27,806 nt of DNA, taken from a virus. How positions within the stretch are numbered: the stretch's first letter is position 1; the number at the start of each line of letters is the position of its first letter. The notes under the pieces are model-generated. The model was given only the letters and a program-made list of their open reading frames with translations. It was not told where the DNA came from and searched no databases. Below, one piece after another: positions 1-17,006 of this stretch. Made by a program: the position numbers and the translations under genes. The stretch spans positions 1-27,806 of IMG/VR virus record IMGVR_UViG_3300047476_001152. One strand, given 5' to 3'.

Positions 1-585
1 CTTACGGCCACGTCGATGCGCCCGAGCTCTGTTGTGAGCTCCGTGCGAACCTGAGTAGCTCCTTGCGACGCTGTCGGGATATCTCCCGTTCCCGCTGGCG
101 ACGCTGGTAGATTGTCAGTCTTTGCCTTGATCGCAGCGATGCCCGCATTGTCTGGTGCAACTGAGTTTCGGGTGCTGACCGCCACATCAATCCTGCCAAG
201 CTCCGTAGCCAGCTCAGAGCGAACCGCCGTAGCGTTCGCAGAAGCGGTCGGAGGAGCCGTGTATCCTGCGGTTGCGAGTCTTGTGGAAGTAGCGACATCG
301 ATCCTCCCAAGTTCGGTAGTCAGTTCACTGCGTACTGCCGATGCTGTCGTAGCTGCCGATGGAGGTGCCGTGTACCCGGAGGTTGCAAGCCGAGTGCTCA
401 CTGCGACATCGAGCTTCGTGCTATTGGAGTCAATCTCAGACCGTATAGCTGATGCGCTTGGAGGCGCTGTATATCCAGAGGTTGCAAGCCGAGTCGAGGT
501 CGCTACGTCGATGCGGCCAAGCTCTGTTGTAAGCTCTGTGCGAACCGCCGATGCAATCGTCGATGCGCTCGGAGCCGCTCCCGAT
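1..585 (-). repeat. Degenerate 99-111 bp in-frame repeats in fibre gene
   Basis: Five copies of a segment encoding L-GRIDVA(T/V)STR-LATSGYTAPPSA lie in the fibre gene. The conserved ACGTCGATGCG-like core occurs at about 502, 403, 292, 181 and 7. Spacings are 99, 111, 111 and 174 bp; the last is longer because an AIKAKTDNLP segment intervenes. All spacings are multiples of three, so the protein frame is kept. The final copy is cut by the window edge. Such stalk repeats can change fibre length by recombination (inference). Confidence 0.85.
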
Positions 586-3500
586 GTAAGAGTGCGAGTG
601 CCGTAGTTCCACACGTCTGCGGCAGTGAGAGAGCCTCCACCGCCGCCGCCTGTTGAGTAAATACGCTGCGGGTCCATCTGAATAGACGATGAGAGTGCAG
701 CAATTACAGTTGAGCCATCGCTCTTAAACAATCGACCACCGCCGATAATAACAGGTGTCGGTTGAGTGTTGTCGAGTTTTAGATTGAGAACGCTTGCATC
801 AATTTCATAGTTCACATCGTCGCTTGCGGTTACTGCATTGAACCACTGAGCGATACCATCATCAGTAGTTTCAATATAGCGCAGCCAAGCGTATATGCGC
901 TGCACCGTGGTCGCTTGGTCTGGGTCTGAAATATCAACCTGAACATTCGGATAGTCTGCCGTAAACTCTGTAACAGTAGAGCCGTCGATTGCATTGCTAG
1001 TGTAAACATCATCCGGCAGTTGGTTAGCGGCTGCGGCAAATCCGGTATCTGTAGCGATAGCAATAAGCGTTTGAGGTAAGCATCCAGTTTTAGCTACCCG
1101 TATACGAATAGTATCTCCAGCGGATATGTCGGTGCCATTCAGGTATTCATAGATATATGATGTGCCGACTACGATTCCGTTGTACAACTCTGTGTTCGTG
1201 TCTTGGTTGTAAACTTGAATCCTAGAACCAGCAACAAGGTTTTCAATTAAACCACTTGCGTCGTTATCGTATGGATAAAGAATCTGTTGTCCTGCCGCGC
1301 TAGACGTTGTTGCAATACGAATGTTAGCAAACGAGTTAGTTCCTGCGACAGCACATACCAGCCGCACCTTGAGTGCCACGCCAACCGCAGGGTCGATAGC
1401 TCCTACCGCTACCAGATTTGCATCAGTAAGCGCAGTCCATGTTCCGTTCCAGCCGCTTCCGATGTCCCATTGGAAAGTAGATGTAACGTTAGCATTTAAT
1501 CCTGTTACTGCGGTTAACCCAGTGTGGCCAAGAGCACGATATGGCATCGTCCACTCAATCGAGTCGTTCACAGTTGCAAGCGTAAATCCACCGCCGCCGT
1601 TGAATCCTGAGTTTCCGCTGAACGAATACACACACTGCGATGCTGTGTCTGTTGTTGGTGCAGAGCCGCAGATATTGATTGCTCCGACTGTTGCAGATGT
1701 AAAACCGTCAATGAAATGTAACCCAGGGTAGTTACCGACTCCTGTTCCCACCGCTGGAAATGCGGAGTGCTGTATTCCTCTTGCGTTGCCTTGAATACCC
1801 CACTGGTTTCCTGATGGTTTTGTGTAACTACCGCCGCAGTTTTTGAAATACGTCTTATTAGATGATGAACCAGCAGCTATACTGGTACTTGCTGACGTGT
1901 TGTTAATCGAATAACAACGGCGAGCAATGCAATCAAATGCAGTAGAAAAGTTGAGAAACGTCAATGTTCCGTTCACCGTTCCGCAATCGTACGGAGATGA
2001 ATAGGTCCCAATATCCTCTACAATGCAATTTCTAGTTGCTTGATTTACTAAAACTACATTGCCTCTCGGATGTACGTTTGCCAATCCAGCAAAGTTCGAG
2101 AATCCTGTTACTCTGATATTATCAGAACTATTTGTGACGTTTATTCCGTTGGTGCTTGTGGTGGTAGTTGTGCCGTTGATTGTTGAGGCATATTGGCTGC
2201 CTGTTATTGTCACATCGCTACAAACAGACACACGAAAATTAGTGCCAATACATACGCAGTTTGTAACTGTTACTCCTACGGAGTTGCTTAGAGAGATACC
2301 AGCCATAGCAACTGTATCTGCAAGTCCAGCACTACCAAACGACTCTCCATAGCAGTTTGTTAGTGTCACATTGTTGCTTTCGTTTATTGCAAATGATGCG
2401 CCTGACGTTGAACCAATCGAATTACCAGTTCGTGCGTTAGTAATACTATAGCCACTGGGATTACGAGTTCCCGTAAAGGGTGACGCTGAAACACCATCAG
2501 GACAAATAGCCAACCCATCGAATGTTGAATAACCTGACGTATCAATCAGGTTGATAATGCGGCTTGTAGTTACGTTTTCAAAAATTGCCCTATTGCCGCT
2601 AATCATGTTCCAGTACCACGGACCGCCAACGTATTTAGCCGTTATCGTCCCGTTATTAGTGATGGACGTTTCATAGCGTGATGCAATCGTTGCGTTAAGG
2701 TTATTAGCGTTCCAGTTTGCTGATGTAGAATTTGAAACAATGATGTTGGGGATTCTTACTTTGCAGCCGCTCGGAGGTTTGTAACCGCAAGCGTTCGTAG
2801 CTCGTCGTGCAATCGTAATAACGCCAGTAGCTAGATCCTGACCGTAGTACTTGCCTCGTACATCTGTACTAACAAATTGCGTAGCAGTTCCCCATCTGTC
2901 GCTAGCGTAAAGCCACCACTCATACACGCCACTACCTGCCGAAGTCTCCATTTGAAAGGCAGGACACAAATCAGCTACGGGATATTGGAACGTCTGATCG
3001 TCTGTTCCGTTTGTCTCGCCAATATAGTACCAATCACCAAGAAACTCGCACGTTGCAAGCTCGCCAACCGTTAATGTTGTTGTTTCTGCACCTACTGCAT
3101 GAATCCAACTACGCTTGCCACCTGTCGCACTGTTGACTGTAACAGTTGCACCCCCAGGAAGAGTGATGATTTCGTTGTCCTGAAACGTACCTGCTTTTGT
3201 TCGGAGCTTGATATATCCCGTCGCTGGCATGGCACCACCAGCATTTGCAGGAGTTAATGAACCTGCTGCCCATACACGCAAAAGCTCGCCAGTTGCTCCA
3301 CTTGTTCCACCAGTTACTCCGTTACTCCCCAGGGCATTTTGAGTTGGAACATTGCCCGTACTTGCATCAAACGGAATCTCCCAAACATCACGACCATCAA
3401 TCAATAGCGAGCCTCGTGTCGTCACGGTAAACGTAATGTTACCAAAAACAGCGGCTTGCTGATTCCAGCGAACGTCTGAGTTAATCGTGAGATTGCCGCC

Positions 3501-3587: not shown

Positions 3588-4627
3588 TAGTTGTAAGTCT
3601 CCGTCTGCGTGATTGAGGCTAGTGTGCCATCGAGATTATAGCTGAACACCTTAGTGATTGTCCTTCCCGCAAGAACGTATACGAGCTGAGTCAACGTACT
3701 CCCTGAGTAGGTAAACGTCTTGTAGTTTCCGTTTGAGTAGTCGATGCGAGTAAGGTTCCCGCCGCTGTAGGTAAACGTCGGACTCTTGTCCGGTGCCTTG
3801 TTTTTCCAGAGGCCAGAGAGTCCGTCGTAGGTAAGAACCTCTCCGTCCTTTTTCGACGTTATGAGCACATCGTGCAACTCATCGACCTCGAAGCCGTTTA
3901 TTACATGAACGAAGATGCTCCCCGAGCTTCCTGAGCCCTGTCTCGCTATCCAGCCAAGAAAGACCAGGTGGTTTGGCTGCACGGGCTTGGTGGTCGTGAA
4001 AGTGCCAGGGATTGAGCCGAGCCAGATGGCTGCGCCTTCCTGATAAATCCCAGTGTTCATGCCTCTTAAAAGACCCTGGGTAGCGACAAACCCTTCGGCC
4101 TGGTCGGCGATTGGCTCCGCTACGAATCCAAAGGTCTTAGAGCTCCCGGCCTCCGTAGTCGAGGTGGCAAGAGTCACCGTAAGCCTCTGACCCTGAGCGC
4201 CAGATATGGCTACTACCTGACCCTTTGACAACGCCGAGCCCGTCGTATTCTTAATGCGAACAAGCTGCTCTTGGCCAACGGACAGGTTAATATTCCCGCC
4301 CGCAAGCCCTACCTGAATCGTACCGTCATCGGCAAACCAACTAACCTTGCCGACCGCTGAAGGCTCTACGGCCCCTACGTCGAACTGCACTCCATCGAGC
4401 GTGGGCGCATCGGTCCAGGCAGTGTCGTAGTCCGACCCGCTCACCTTCCGCAGAATATCGTTAGCCACCCCGCCAGGAGCCACACCTGGCCCGACAGCGC
4501 CCTGCGGCCCCGGAGACTTAACCTCCACCACAGTCACTGGAGGCGAGGAGACCGTAATAGTGTTGTTGGCCTCTTCAACGACCACGAACCTTTGGTCTTC
4601 GGTGGCTACAACAACGATATCGGTCAT
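3587..4627 (-). CDS. Tail fibre-like protein with collagen-like and YD-like parts
   Basis: The product has 346 residues. The first 35 residues are strand-rich (VVVATEDQRFVVVEEANNTI), followed by a short collagen-like stretch GPQGAVGPG near residues 40-48. A central region (about 100-250) with NTTGSALSKGQVVAISG and FGFVAEPIADQAEGFVATQG resembles a segment I recall from phage structural and fibre proteins. The C-terminus has three echoes of a Y(S/N)-G-N/T-LT-I motif (FTYSGGNLTRIDYSNGNY, FTYSGSTLTQLVY, FSYNLDGTLASITQ), reminiscent of YD/RHS repeats. Its ATG overlaps the upstream stop (ATGA at 4624-4627) and its own stop overlaps the next start. It is probably a trimeric fibre or fibre-attachment subunit. 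The exact role is not shown by the sequence. Confidence 0.7.
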   Translation of the reverse strand: MTDIVVVATEDQRFVVVEEANNTITVSSPPVTVVEVKSPGPQGAVGPGVAPGGVANDILRKVSGSDYDTAWTDAPTLDGVQFDVGAVEPSAVGKVSWFADDGTIQVGLAGGNINLSVGQEQLVRIKNTTGSALSKGQVVAISGAQGQRLTVTLATSTTEAGSSKTFGFVAEPIADQAEGFVATQGLLRGMNTGIYQEGAAIWLGSIPGTFTTTKPVQPNHLVFLGWIARQGSGSSGSIFVHVINGFEVDELHDVLITSKKDGEVLTYDGLSGLWKNKAPDKSPTFTYSGGNLTRIDYSNGNYKTFTYSGSTLTQLVYVLAGRTITKVFSYNLDGTLASITQTETYN

Positions 4628-13800: not shown

Positions 13801-16354
13801 TAACTTCCTTAGCAAACGCCTGATAGTCTCCGCCTGCCTTAAGGAACTCTTCACCTATAGCTTCGATCCTTGCACGGAGCTCTTCAGCGCTTTGCTGTGG
13901 CGCATTAAATACATCGAGAAGTTTTTGCTGAACATCTCTTGGTATAGCCTGCCCGAGAGAGCGACCAAGAGACTTGGTGAGCTCTTTGAGCTGTTGCTGC
14001 TGCTGCTTTAATGCATTAGCAGCATCTTTAGCTCCCCTTTCTGCATCTTTTCTTTCATCAGCAACTTGCTTCTTAACTCTAGAACGTCTTTCATCTAAGA
14101 ACTTAAAGACTTGCTGCCTTTGTTTTTCATCTAATCCAGCGGACTCTTCTCTAAGTTTAACTTCTGCTTCTAAATTTGCGATCTTTACTTTACTTGCTTC
14201 GACGCTTGCTTGCTCTTTTGCAGTTAGCTCACCAGTTTTTGAGGTTAATTGAGCTAAAGCTTCTTTCTCGGCATCCAAAGCCTTCTTTGCAATCTGGATA
14301 TTCGCATTACCAACTGTGTTAATAATTGAAGAAGCAAGTTGGCTTACTTGCTCCGCAGCTTGCTGTGCAGTGCCAGCTGTCCCAGATTCTATTTTTGAAA
14401 AAAGTCCATCAACTTTAGGGATAATCTGGTCTATTGCTTCTGTGTTAAGACCAGGGATTCTAATCAGACCAAGAGACTCTTCTGTCTTTGCCTTAAACTG
14501 CGCTAAGGCTGTGCTTGTGTCAGTGATAGAGTCAGATACTGCAGTAGTATCAACTTTAGCCTGAATTGTAATACTCTGCTGTTGTTGCTGACGTTTCTGA
14601 GCTTCGTCCAACAATCCCTGAATTTGTTTCTTTTCTGCCTCATACTGCTCTATAGAATAGAGAATGCCAGCACGTGCCTCTGGGGATTTAGTAACACGTA
14701 AAGATGCTTTAGCTTTTGCAATTGCAGTACTGAGCTCTTCGAGCCTTTCTACCTTTGCCGCATTGGATAAATTGAATATGTCATTTACTGCGTTTGCAGC
14801 TGCGGTTCCAAGTATTCTAAAGCGAAGAGCTAGCTCATCAATTACCGGGATATAATCAGCGTTGATTATTTTTCCGATGAAGCTGCCGAGCGCATCACCT
14901 GCGCCTCTAAATACTCCGGCAAGTGGCTTTGCAGTTTCATTAAGATTCGTAAGCCCACGCTCGAGCTCTACGGAGTTATTAAATCCAAGGAGGAATTGAT
15001 CAACTAAGTTGGCCGCAGTTGTCTTAGCTTCAGTAAAAGCGACTCCAACATCTCTGCTAATTGGTGGGAGCGTCTCCAATCCTTCTTTGAGCTTCTTGCT
15101 CGTCTCATTAAAGAATGCGAGACGCTTCTCAGCATCAGTGAGATCATCGACAAGCTTATTATTCTCTCTGGCGAAGTTTGAGTACGCCTGAGTTGCACTA
15201 ACTACTATACCAAGGTTGTCGAGATAGAGACGTGATTGACGACCGAGACCGATAGAAAGAGACTCAAGGGCGAATGCTGCATCAATGCCCATGGCTCTTC
15301 CGAGCTTAACAGCTGCCTCTGCAGATTCTTCAAATAGTTGAGTTGGGACTTGAAGAAGTACAGCTTGGTTGGCTTTTTGATACAGCTCAGTGTCACTAAT
15401 AAGACCTTGAGTCGCTGTTCGAAGTCTTTCGATACTAGCCGCTGGGTCTCTTCCTACTGATTGCTGAAGAGTGCTAAATGCTGTTGCAAGTGCTTGAACC
15501 CTATTGCCTTCTTCGGCAAGTGATATGACTGCATTCTTAAGATTGTTTACAAGCCCAATGGCTTCTTTGAATAAGAAGACGCCGGAGGCCAAGCTCGGGA
15601 GGTCTACTCCAAGTCCTCCTTTCCCAGCCCCCTCGGTCTGCATTGCCACTGTAGCCTGCCTAACCTTGGCAGCATCAAGTCTAAGCTGCTCAACGGTCTT
15701 CTTTGCTTCCGCCCGCTTAGTAGCCTCTGACTCTTTGAATATCCTGACCTCTTTGGAGGTTTCTGCTTTGAGAGCTTCCGAAGCGGCCTTAAGTCCAGCG
15801 ATTCGCTCAAGAGACGCTTGCTTGGCAGCGCTTGTTTCTGCCTTAAGACCAGCGATTGTTTGCGACAGGCTCGCCTTGGCGGCGTCTCGCTTGCTAACCT
15901 CAAATAGCTTTGAAGCTTCCGCAGAGGCACGAAGCTTCTGCATCTCTTCGTTGTGAGCAGAGATAAGCTCTGCTCGCTTGGTCATCTGAGACTGCTTATA
16001 TGCATTAGCAGTTGTCTTGAGCCCCTGGATTGTCTTATCCGCAGTAGCCTTTAACTGCTCTCTTTTAGTGACTTCGCCCTCTTTGAACTCAGCGACATCT
16101 TTCTTAATGCCCTCAATTCTTTCTGCGCTAGTAGAGCGAATGGTAGCTACTTCCTCCGCTGCGGCCTTCTTAATCTCAGCCACACGTATATCAGCAAGGT
16201 TGCTAGTAGCCTTTGCGATTGTCTTAAAGTCTACGCCGATATTCTTGGCGATGCTGGCAAATGCCTCTCCGATATCGAGAGCAGCGTTAATTGCTGGCCC
16301 AGCGTCTACCGTTACACTAATCTTAATATCGTTAGAGTCGCCAAAGCCTGCCAT
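10886..16354 (-). CDS. Tail tape measure protein, 1822 aa
   Basis: It sets tail length and is threaded inside the tail tube. It is very long, rich in Ala, Lys, Glu and Gln, and almost wholly helical or coiled-coil. Residues 93-237 are five 29-residue coiled-coil repeats. A hydrophobic stretch follows at about 250-285 (SLASGVFLFKEAIGLVNNLK), then typical tape-measure sequence. A second apolar stretch (IGTILGGEVGGIVGRLVGEY) lies near residue 1000. Two copies of a roughly 150-200-residue module lie at about 1129-1278 and 1442-1639. The last 75 residues are Gly/Ser/Thr-rich, then basic (RNKKTKRVIRSAK). The ATG overlaps the stop of the frameshifted chaperone as TAATG. At about 0.15 nm per residue the tail would be near 270 nm (inference). 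No peptidoglycan hydrolase motif was recognised. Confidence 0.97.
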   Translation of the reverse strand: MAGFGDSNDIKISVTVDAGPAINAALDIGEAFASIAKNIGVDFKTIAKATSNLADIRVAEIKKAAAEEVATIRSTSAERIEGIKKDVAEFKEGEVTKREQLKATADKTIQGLKTTANAYKQSQMTKRAELISAHNEEMQKLRASAEASKLFEVSKRDAAKASLSQTIAGLKAETSAAKQASLERIAGLKAASEALKAETSKEVRIFKESEATKRAEAKKTVEQLRLDAAKVRQATVAMQTEGAGKGGLGVDLPSLASGVFLFKEAIGLVNNLKNAVISLAEEGNRVQALATAFSTLQQSVGRDPAASIERLRTATQGLISDTELYQKANQAVLLQVPTQLFEESAEAAVKLGRAMGIDAAFALESLSIGLGRQSRLYLDNLGIVVSATQAYSNFARENNKLVDDLTDAEKRLAFFNETSKKLKEGLETLPPISRDVGVAFTEAKTTAANLVDQFLLGFNNSVELERGLTNLNETAKPLAGVFRGAGDALGSFIGKIINADYIPVIDELALRFRILGTAAANAVNDIFNLSNAAKVERLEELSTAIAKAKASLRVTKSPEARAGILYSIEQYEAEKKQIQGLLDEAQKRQQQQQSITIQAKVDTTAVSDSITDTSTALAQFKAKTEESLGLIRIPGLNTEAIDQIIPKVDGLFSKIESGTAGTAQQAAEQVSQLASSIINTVGNANIQIAKKALDAEKEALAQLTSKTGELTAKEQASVEASKVKIANLEAEVKLREESAGLDEKQRQQVFKFLDERRSRVKKQVADERKDAERGAKDAANALKQQQQQLKELTKSLGRSLGQAIPRDVQQKLLDVFNAPQQSAEELRARIEAIGEEFLKAGGDYQAFAKEVKGLNDLKQQFPNEKLLTSSEETKEIKAYNAQLAEARQGVLNLRDALKGIDKDAEGRQQGGGFFGFDTSGSFSEDTQKQLQEITGSETFAGFEAAVAKALIDGLKLAIDLAFSDFTRNDAPQIGTQIGTILGGEVGGIVGRLVGEYIMRNTQDLASTKERKQIDKYFGELFDGGRLGVIIQGQVRTAVSNGIVTIGETLQEAKPQLQRISDIVFEGFTPFAGQVQFGGEGFFNYFNTLASSVQNSFNGVGLAIGKLQGVSTETARLIGVALANNIGGSLQNLQVLIQATGESFEDLSKAITEAFLNAELTIDEAYNSLIQLQNLSEKGIPGAFGAWKEALDNFSTAIREEQPGRYALDAFRDIASEGIEAGKTFEEIGGQIAGSLGLTEEQVGLFFAAMRSVGITNLSQLENASVEAFISILAKAKAIKDGIATTAQEVTAIPNVPTPQVRSGGGGKREKSAGELAKELLEKQREEARKLLQDSQAYLTIIDQINKGQIGNVEAGKEIVRLQKDLLNTIIARDKIEKALNAELDKGAKGSKKRIAELAAELSKLEEKLEKARKKAGEVTREYKTLDIDAIIPLIRSQNSLGVVARQIGVDLKKNIDVLVKGFMQGRLSISEANKEIAKTKELLGPGIPNSVGAVTDAFQNLIDAGTTGGSFSTDAFVDIFAEFREKFNREGSALREAQRKQLNENLAAAQEAVRTAVGPEASQAALKALDVAKKALDDFRNEPLVPDLSDLKEQLKSSFSPEQVDIFFRALDESGLKTFEEFENASTETVLSILGRIEELGFKFNETSEEIQGVNQGLVDAETAANGGLDPLAQAIDLVRQFNEGAETLPPAFNSTTEAIDKLNGPLEKLANSFGNIVEKLGKLSGNTFENDIVFNIRTTGDQGGQALVELIFGDGTDVSAPTGSGGGGTTGGGGSTGGGKPTSGGRATGNGKKSDWTRESPGFWRNKKTKRVIRSAKNPGA
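15644..16078 (-). repeat. Five 29-residue coiled-coil repeats in tape measure
   Basis: Residues 93-121, 122-150, 151-179, 180-208 and 209-237 align without gaps. Units begin GEVTKREQLK, SQMTKRAELI, FEVSKRDAAK, ASLERIAGLK and SEATKRAEAK. The T/S-KR pair is kept in four of five; several units carry a G/K-LK or KLR segment about 18 residues in. The DNA copies (87 bp each) have diverged, so this is an old expansion under protein-level constraint. A 29-residue unit is close to four heptads plus one. Confidence 0.85.
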
Positions 16355-17006
16355 TACTTGATCTTCGTCTTGCTGTTCTTCTTAGCTGTCCACTCCCTAT
16401 ATTCCGATAGAATGGACCTCATCTCCAAGATGGTTTCTGCAGTTTCGTCGGCAAGTCCGCTCTCTTTCAGGAGTTTTTCCTGAAATGAGCCATAGCCGCT
16501 CGACATATCCAGAATCTCTATCTGCAGAAATGCGTCAGCAAGACGGTTGAGCCGCTTGTTGCCCGCTATGTCTACAATGGGACATAGGTTCTTGAGACAA
16601 GCGGGCTTCTTATTATTTTTGGCGTAGAGTACGTGACAATTAGGACAGTTGAGACCAGGCTCAAAGAGCTTGTATCTCAGTAGCCTAATTAGTTCACCGT
16701 TACGTCGTTTTTTGCTTCCGCCTCGCCTTTAAGGCCTTCAACGATGGCCTTTGACCAAGCTTGAATGAGCTGGAAGAAGAACTTTGCCGAGAACTTCTTG
16801 TTCTTCAGGTCTTCTACGGTAACGATCGTGCCATCCTTATACTCAAAGCCACGGAGCTCTTTAAGCTTTGGAAGAAGGATATCCGCCTGCTCATCGAGAG
16901 TCTTTCCAGACATCTCGATCATGATAGCCCAGTCACGGAGAGTGGGCTCGTCAAACACAGCGACTCCGTCGCCAACTTTTACCGTAAGGTCATTATCAAT
17001 AATCAT
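16354..17006 (-). CDS. Frameshifted tail assembly chaperone (gpG-T type), 217 aa
   Basis: This is the -1 frameshift product. Translation of the 105-residue chaperone reaches A AAA AAC at 16713-16707 (0-frame codons GCA AAA AAC), slips back one base, and continues CGA CGT AAC GGT in a frame open to TAA at 16354-16356. The result is 100 + 117 residues. The downstream part has no start codon of its own, so it can only be made by the shift. It contains NCPNCH and ACLKNLCP, a CxxC...CxxxxC group (fusion residues about 121, 124, 137 and 142) that could bind zinc, then helical sequence rich in Leu and Glu, ending KKNSKTKIK. Its stop overlaps the tape measure ATG (TAATG). Order, length and shift match the lambda G/GT chaperone pair, which loads the tape measure for tube assembly. 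Confidence 0.87.
16689..17006 (-). CDS. Tail assembly chaperone (gpG-like), 105 aa
   Basis: This is the short, unshifted form. It starts MIIDNDLTVKVGDGVAVFDE and is mixed alpha/beta, with a helical second half (LRDWAIMIEMSGKTLDEQAD, FFFQLIQAWSKAIVEGLKGE), ending DVTVN. The ATG has an AAGGG ribosome binding site and follows the terminator of the major tail gene by under 50 bases. It lies between the tail tube and tape measure genes, the invariant place for this chaperone. It is assembly machinery and normally absent from the finished virion. It shares its first 100 residues with the frameshifted product. Confidence 0.85.
   Translation of the reverse strand: MIIDNDLTVKVGDGVAVFDEPTLRDWAIMIEMSGKTLDEQADILLPKLKELRGFEYKDGTIVTVEDLKNKKFSAKFFFQLIQAWSKAIVEGLKGEAEAKNDVTVN
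16707..16713 (-). promoter_or_regulatory. -1 ribosomal frameshift slippery site A AAA AAC
   Basis: On the coding strand the heptamer AAAAAAC lies in the correct phase (A|AAA|AAC) 16 bases before the zero-frame stop codon. The -1 frame is open for 118 codons after it. A short possible stem downstream pairs AGGCT (16682-16686) with AGCCT (16657-16661), and an inner GCTC-TTT-GAGC is present. I do not see a convincing pseudoknot. Confidence 0.88.

Follow-up and report, generated by a model that had tools for sequence, protein, structure and literature searches.

A conserved candidate -1 frameshift like those of tail assembly chaperone genes, with a cysteine-bearing extension, in a tailed phage fragment and its relatives

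Among phages, programmed frameshifting is best known from the tail assembly chaperone genes. The binding partner of lambda G is the tape measure protein, and that of the T domain is the tail tube subunit (PMC5009743, PMC4493119). In phiCbK, the tail chaperone is reported to shift frame at the heptamer A AAA AAC; the same heptamer is listed for HCTV-2 (PMC3556154, PMC5009743) and has been proposed for Loki. A close variant, A AAA AAG, with a hairpin after it, occurs in the E. coli dnaX gene (PMC3711429). In E. coli, A_AAA_AAC is far less shift-prone than A_AAA_AAG (PMC5009743), so that a stimulator, or a host with other tRNAs, could come into play at an A AAA AAC site; E. coli may not be the host of the phage described here.

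We analysed a 27,806-nucleotide stretch of viral DNA (IMG/VR record IMGVR_UViG_3300047476_001152; hereafter the window). Because it encodes portal, terminase, scaffold and tail collar genes, we take the window to be a fragment of a tailed phage. The phage is uncultivated and, in our reading, long-tailed. The frameshift principle and the A AAA AAC heptamer are already known; the additions made by this locus are a cysteine-bearing T family, a swap of heptamers among relatives and a stem-loop. The best explanation of the whole is a lambda G/GT-type slip that produces a G-T fusion, with a stem-loop downstream of the site and a cysteine-bearing T family, and we put its probability at about 94%. The features on which the argument turns are the following.

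18169-17111, minus strand: tail tube (major tail) protein gene, assigned by homology through L017, L019 and L030
17006-16689, minus strand: G, putative tail assembly chaperone gene (zero-frame product), 105 codons; an open reading frame located after the tail tube gene and before the tape measure gene, with dN/dS low among relatives
16713-16707, minus strand: slippery heptamer A AAA AAC in X XXY YYZ phase, read from the sequence and its relatives
16707-16354, minus strand: T, the -1 extension of G, 117 codons and a stop, defined by alignment, by substitutions that follow the -1 frame and by the lack of a start of its own
16697-16632 (conserved part 16691-16637), minus strand: candidate stimulatory stem-loop, from folding z, pairing in relatives and consensus energy
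16647-16582, minus strand: four invariant cysteines of T, at extension residues 21, 24, 37 and 42
16354-10886, minus strand: tape measure gene, 1822 codons, assigned by position, length and PHROG matches in homologues

Gene order and the identity of G and T

The identity of G and T is drawn from their neighbours, as neither protein has a family match of its own. The tail tube protein of the window shares 51-61% identity with those of L017, L019 and L030, the last of which matches Phage_tube_2 (PF18906) at E 1.9e-14, above the Pfam cut-off. On the other side of the pair, PHROG tape measure families are matched by the gene that follows T in L060 (9.8e-12), L068 (2.5e-4) and L039 (7.6e-10). For the tube and tape measure proteins encoded in the window itself, Pfam and PHROGs returned only chance-level hits. 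By homology, then, G and T are flanked by the tail tube and tape measure genes. This placement, together with the heptamer and selection on the -1 frame, bears out the lambda G/GT arrangement that an earlier note on this DNA had proposed from the letters and open reading frames. The tail chaperone label is supported by synteny and architecture and not by similarity of sequence or fold to gpG or gpT.

Both G and T gave chance-level hits in Pfam, PHROGs and the PDB, with no hhalign match to known chaperones, and tblastn against INPHARED found nothing beyond chance. Scanning GTDB genomes with T found no relative, and Foldseek comparison of the T model with the PDB and BFVD reached a best E of 0.75; the structure model of G was poor (pLDDT 50). 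Profile matches in the PDB to de novo helical barrels were set aside as reflecting helix composition only. A profile search of the extension against gpT-like families was one of the checks that the earlier note had proposed, and no similarity to gpT was detected; such families are reportedly highly diverged (Pell et al. 2013). Judged by these searches, G and T form a previously unnamed family without a match in Pfam, PHROG, PDB or INPHARED. Within the family, G of L017 is 32% identical to that of the window (E 8e-16) and the G proteins of L019 and L030 are clearly related only to each other. T is better conserved than G, since it keeps 45-60% identity across the set (45-94% to the window over the full range) where similarity in G is low or undetected.

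The tape measure protein varies widely in length among relatives, from about 870 to 1820 residues. Elsewhere in the window, a small protein encoded at 4971-4624 (minus) matches phrog_1084 (2e-29) and has weak matches to families annotated as 'L-shaped tail fiber protein assembly'. The left end (positions 1-3500, about 3.5 kb) holds no open reading frame longer than 164 codons on either strand, and the three tested there had no Pfam match.

The shift site and the translated -1 frame

The 3' end of G reads GAA GCA AAA AAC GAC GTA ACG GTG AAC TAA on the minus strand, which places A AAA AAC in the phase that the earlier note had claimed, and the -1 frame beyond it is open for the 117 residues described there. 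The heptamer is indeed close to the G stop (TAA, 16691-16689), at 15 nt from its end rather than the 16 previously counted. Neither ATG, GTG nor TTG occurs in the -1 frame of the window from the upstream stop (16731) to the first cysteine, in agreement with an extension that lacks its own start. The T stop (TAA, 16356-16354) shares its last base with the tape measure start (ATG, 16354-16352), giving the TAATG noted before.

Relatives were collected as IMG/VR matches to G or T as query, and identical copies were merged, leaving ten distinct sequences: the window, L003, L006, L007, L008, L027, L028 (same contig as L016), L017, L019 and L030. The layout of G, a -1 T and a tape measure gene is common to all ten distinct contigs. 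A AAA AAC stands in the same phase in nine of them. In the tenth, L030, the site (3965-3971, plus strand) reads GGT TTT TTG, which puts T TTT TTG in phase; slipping by -1 at this site leads into the same T frame. All ten thus have an in-phase slippery heptamer within the short overlap of the G and T frames, so that the alignment of relatives suggested by the earlier note speaks for conservation of the site, with a natural exchange of two slippery heptamers at one homologous position. Across the ten, the distance from the opening of the -1 frame to the heptamer is 3-45 nt and that from the heptamer to the end of the zero frame is 3-54 nt, which confines the change of frame to a narrow stretch. 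The same frame change in independent contigs also led us to reject sequencing error as its cause.

The site is constrained at the nucleotide level. All three synonymous sites of the heptamer (GCA/TCA/CCA/GGA, AAA, AAC) are invariant; across G, 92 of the 105 third positions vary and 13 do not. AAA is a minority lysine codon in this phage (28%), yet it is invariant at the shift site. In the other genes of the window, in-phase slippery heptamers (with Y = A or T) occur at 5 of 5782 codon positions, one of them as AAAAAAC; their rarity and the recurrence of the site in relatives exclude a chance origin. A second in-phase A AAA AAC lies at 5080-5074 (minus), within the open reading frame 5412-5014. 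We regard it as probably fortuitous because the -1 frame that follows shuts at 33 codons.

Past the G stop, the pattern of substitution changes register. Among close relatives, the variable columns in the body of G are distributed 38/24/88 over codon positions 1/2/3; in the T region, counted by the same G-frame index, they are distributed 31/84/43, the free position now being the third of the -1 frame. This move of variable sites indicates that the extension is translated. Pairwise dN/dS in T is about 0.06-0.17 (for pairs with computable dS only), and by these comparative measures the -1 frame is under protein-coding selection. Taken with the gene order and the conserved heptamer, the comparison strongly supports a programmed -1 shift that is conserved and belongs to the type seen in tail assembly chaperones.

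A candidate stimulator and the proposed mechanism

The earlier note saw no clear pseudoknot and left open what would stimulate the slip. No pseudoknot is evident downstream of the heptamer in our analysis either, but a stem-loop of 66 nt (16697-16632) begins 9 nt downstream of it, with a folding energy of -24.2 kcal/mol (z = -4.9). Its outer 4 bp are confined to the closest relatives. Over the conserved part, 88.7% of cells in the seven close relatives are paired; sliding the partner strand brings this down to 50% or less. Both partners have changed in five pairs, among them columns 25/75 (A-U, G-C, G-U) and 36/63 (G-C, A-U, U-A), and among all 60- and 66-nt windows over G and T the lowest consensus folding energy falls at this place. 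In protein-preserving controls built from synonymous codons, the window, L003, L006 and L007 scored z = -2.4 to -3.4. L008 showed no signal in this control, and the stem-loop is not its predicted fold; when the distant L017 and L019 are included in the consensus folding, most of the stem-loop is lost and a short remnant is left. We consider this conserved stem-loop, with its covarying pairs, a likely though not certain candidate stimulator.

A sequence resembling a Shine-Dalgarno (SD) site, GAGGCGG, is also found upstream of the heptamer in most relatives and is absent from L006 and L028. Pairing with the anti-SD as good as that seen in the window is reached by about 9% of 25-nt stretches drawn at random from the phage genes. 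We set this sequence aside as a stimulator, as it is weak, inconsistent across relatives and not unusual for the genome.

We propose the following course of events. Most ribosomes would stop at the TAA at 16691-16689 and release G (105 aa). A minority, their two tRNAs re-paired with AAA AAA after a one-base backward slip on A AAA AAC, would continue in the -1 frame and produce a 217-aa G-T fusion; the stem-loop probably raises the rate at which this happens. By analogy with lambda, the product of the next gene, the tape measure protein, would become coated with many copies of G and a few of G-T, whose T domain would recruit the tail tube protein and so start the tube.

Two other routes to the product of the -1 frame are both unlikely. 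T might be a gene in its own right whose translation begins, by coupled re-initiation, at a weak start codon after the G stop (ATT at 16689, CTG at 16680, or TTG in some relatives), with the A-run incidental. The ATT of the window does overlap the region of the G stop, and codon 9 of the extension (counted from 0) is TTG in L006. However, between the heptamer and the first cysteine eight of the ten sequences lack ATG, GTG and TTG altogether and none of these codons is shared. An incidental A-run would also leave unexplained why the AAA and AAC codons are invariant at their synonymous sites and why L030 exchanges the heptamer for another slippery one. The earlier note had named as contrary to its reading a relative without the heptamer and with its own start for the downstream frame; no such case was found among the ten, all of which have a slippery heptamer and none of which has a usable conserved start codon. 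We therefore consider re-initiation very improbable. We give still less credence to slippage of RNA polymerase, in place of the ribosome, on the A-run. The site does hold a run of six A, but this is short for transcriptional slippage, which usually needs about nine or more. Moreover, the phase of the heptamer is exactly kept, the third base ahead of it is A in every case and the AAC end is present in nine of ten sequences. A conserved downstream stem-loop is what would be expected for ribosomal slips.

The cysteines of T and comparison with known systems

The extension carries the motifs NCPNCH and ACLKNLCP reported in the earlier note, and with them a CxxC-x12-C-x4-C pattern that is invariant in ten of ten sequences, down to 45% identity. 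G has no cysteine, and neither has the 1822-residue tape measure protein. Four conserved candidate metal ligands are present in T, as a C4 zinc domain requires. Based on this conservation, the four cysteines are predicted to form, probably, a metal site, which would most likely hold one structural zinc. The possible zinc site of the earlier note is thereby strengthened as to its cysteines and weakened as to its histidine, since the His of NCPNCH is variable in relatives (H, Y, L or S).

The frameshift could also operate as described with a cysteine cluster that binds no metal, the cysteines being either structural noise or partners in disulfides. The variable histidine is consistent with this, as are the low confidence of the T model around the cysteines (pLDDT about 58) and the searches of Pfam and the PDB, by sequence and by Foldseek, which found no zinc-domain family or fold match for T. 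Noise is difficult to reconcile with four cysteines kept in ten sequences to 45% identity in a system whose G and tape measure proteins have none, and disulfides are improbable in a cytoplasmic chaperone. We regard the non-metal alternative as possible and lean against it. A fuller hypothesis, in which T is a zinc-binding domain, recruitment of the tail tube in a clade of uncultivated phages hangs on a metal site delivered solely by the ribosomal frameshift and the stem-loop sets its dose, seems to us evenly balanced between right and wrong.

In the largely open-access literature that we consulted, we found no case of zinc or of a cysteine site in a tail assembly chaperone. A zinc-binding T domain, if true, would be a modest novelty. 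The conserved cysteine motif can flag the chaperone in metagenomes where the T half escapes gene finders. A degenerate C4 pattern scan returned 38 stretches, and outside the known family none was convincing as T.

The locus adds an unnamed G/T family to those already described, and it resembles lambda gpG/gpGT most fully. The order of tail tube, G, -1 extension T and tape measure is the same, the heptamer lies about 20 nt ahead of the G stop and the T frame overlaps the tape measure start. It differs in that the lambda heptamer is G GGA AAG (starting 22 nt before the stop), there is no detectable sequence similarity in G or T, and lambda gpT has no cysteine cluster after the slip. Among three reference systems only, the cysteines after the slip number none in lambda, none in P2 and at most one in HK97. 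P2 E/E+E' likewise has a -1 shift before the tape measure gene (per the record annotation), and its T TTT TTG, which starts 25 nt before the E stop, is the heptamer of L030; however, the E' extension is short and without cysteine, and the P2 tail is contractile. The heptamer is shared with phiCbK gp93/gp94 and with the haloarchaeal HCTV-2, AAAAAAC being the tail chaperone site reported for the former and listed for the latter. Finally, E. coli dnaX combines a near-identical heptamer with a hairpin downstream, as we propose here, but it also has an upstream SD-like stimulator, whereas the corresponding sequence in the window is weak and inconsistently present among relatives.
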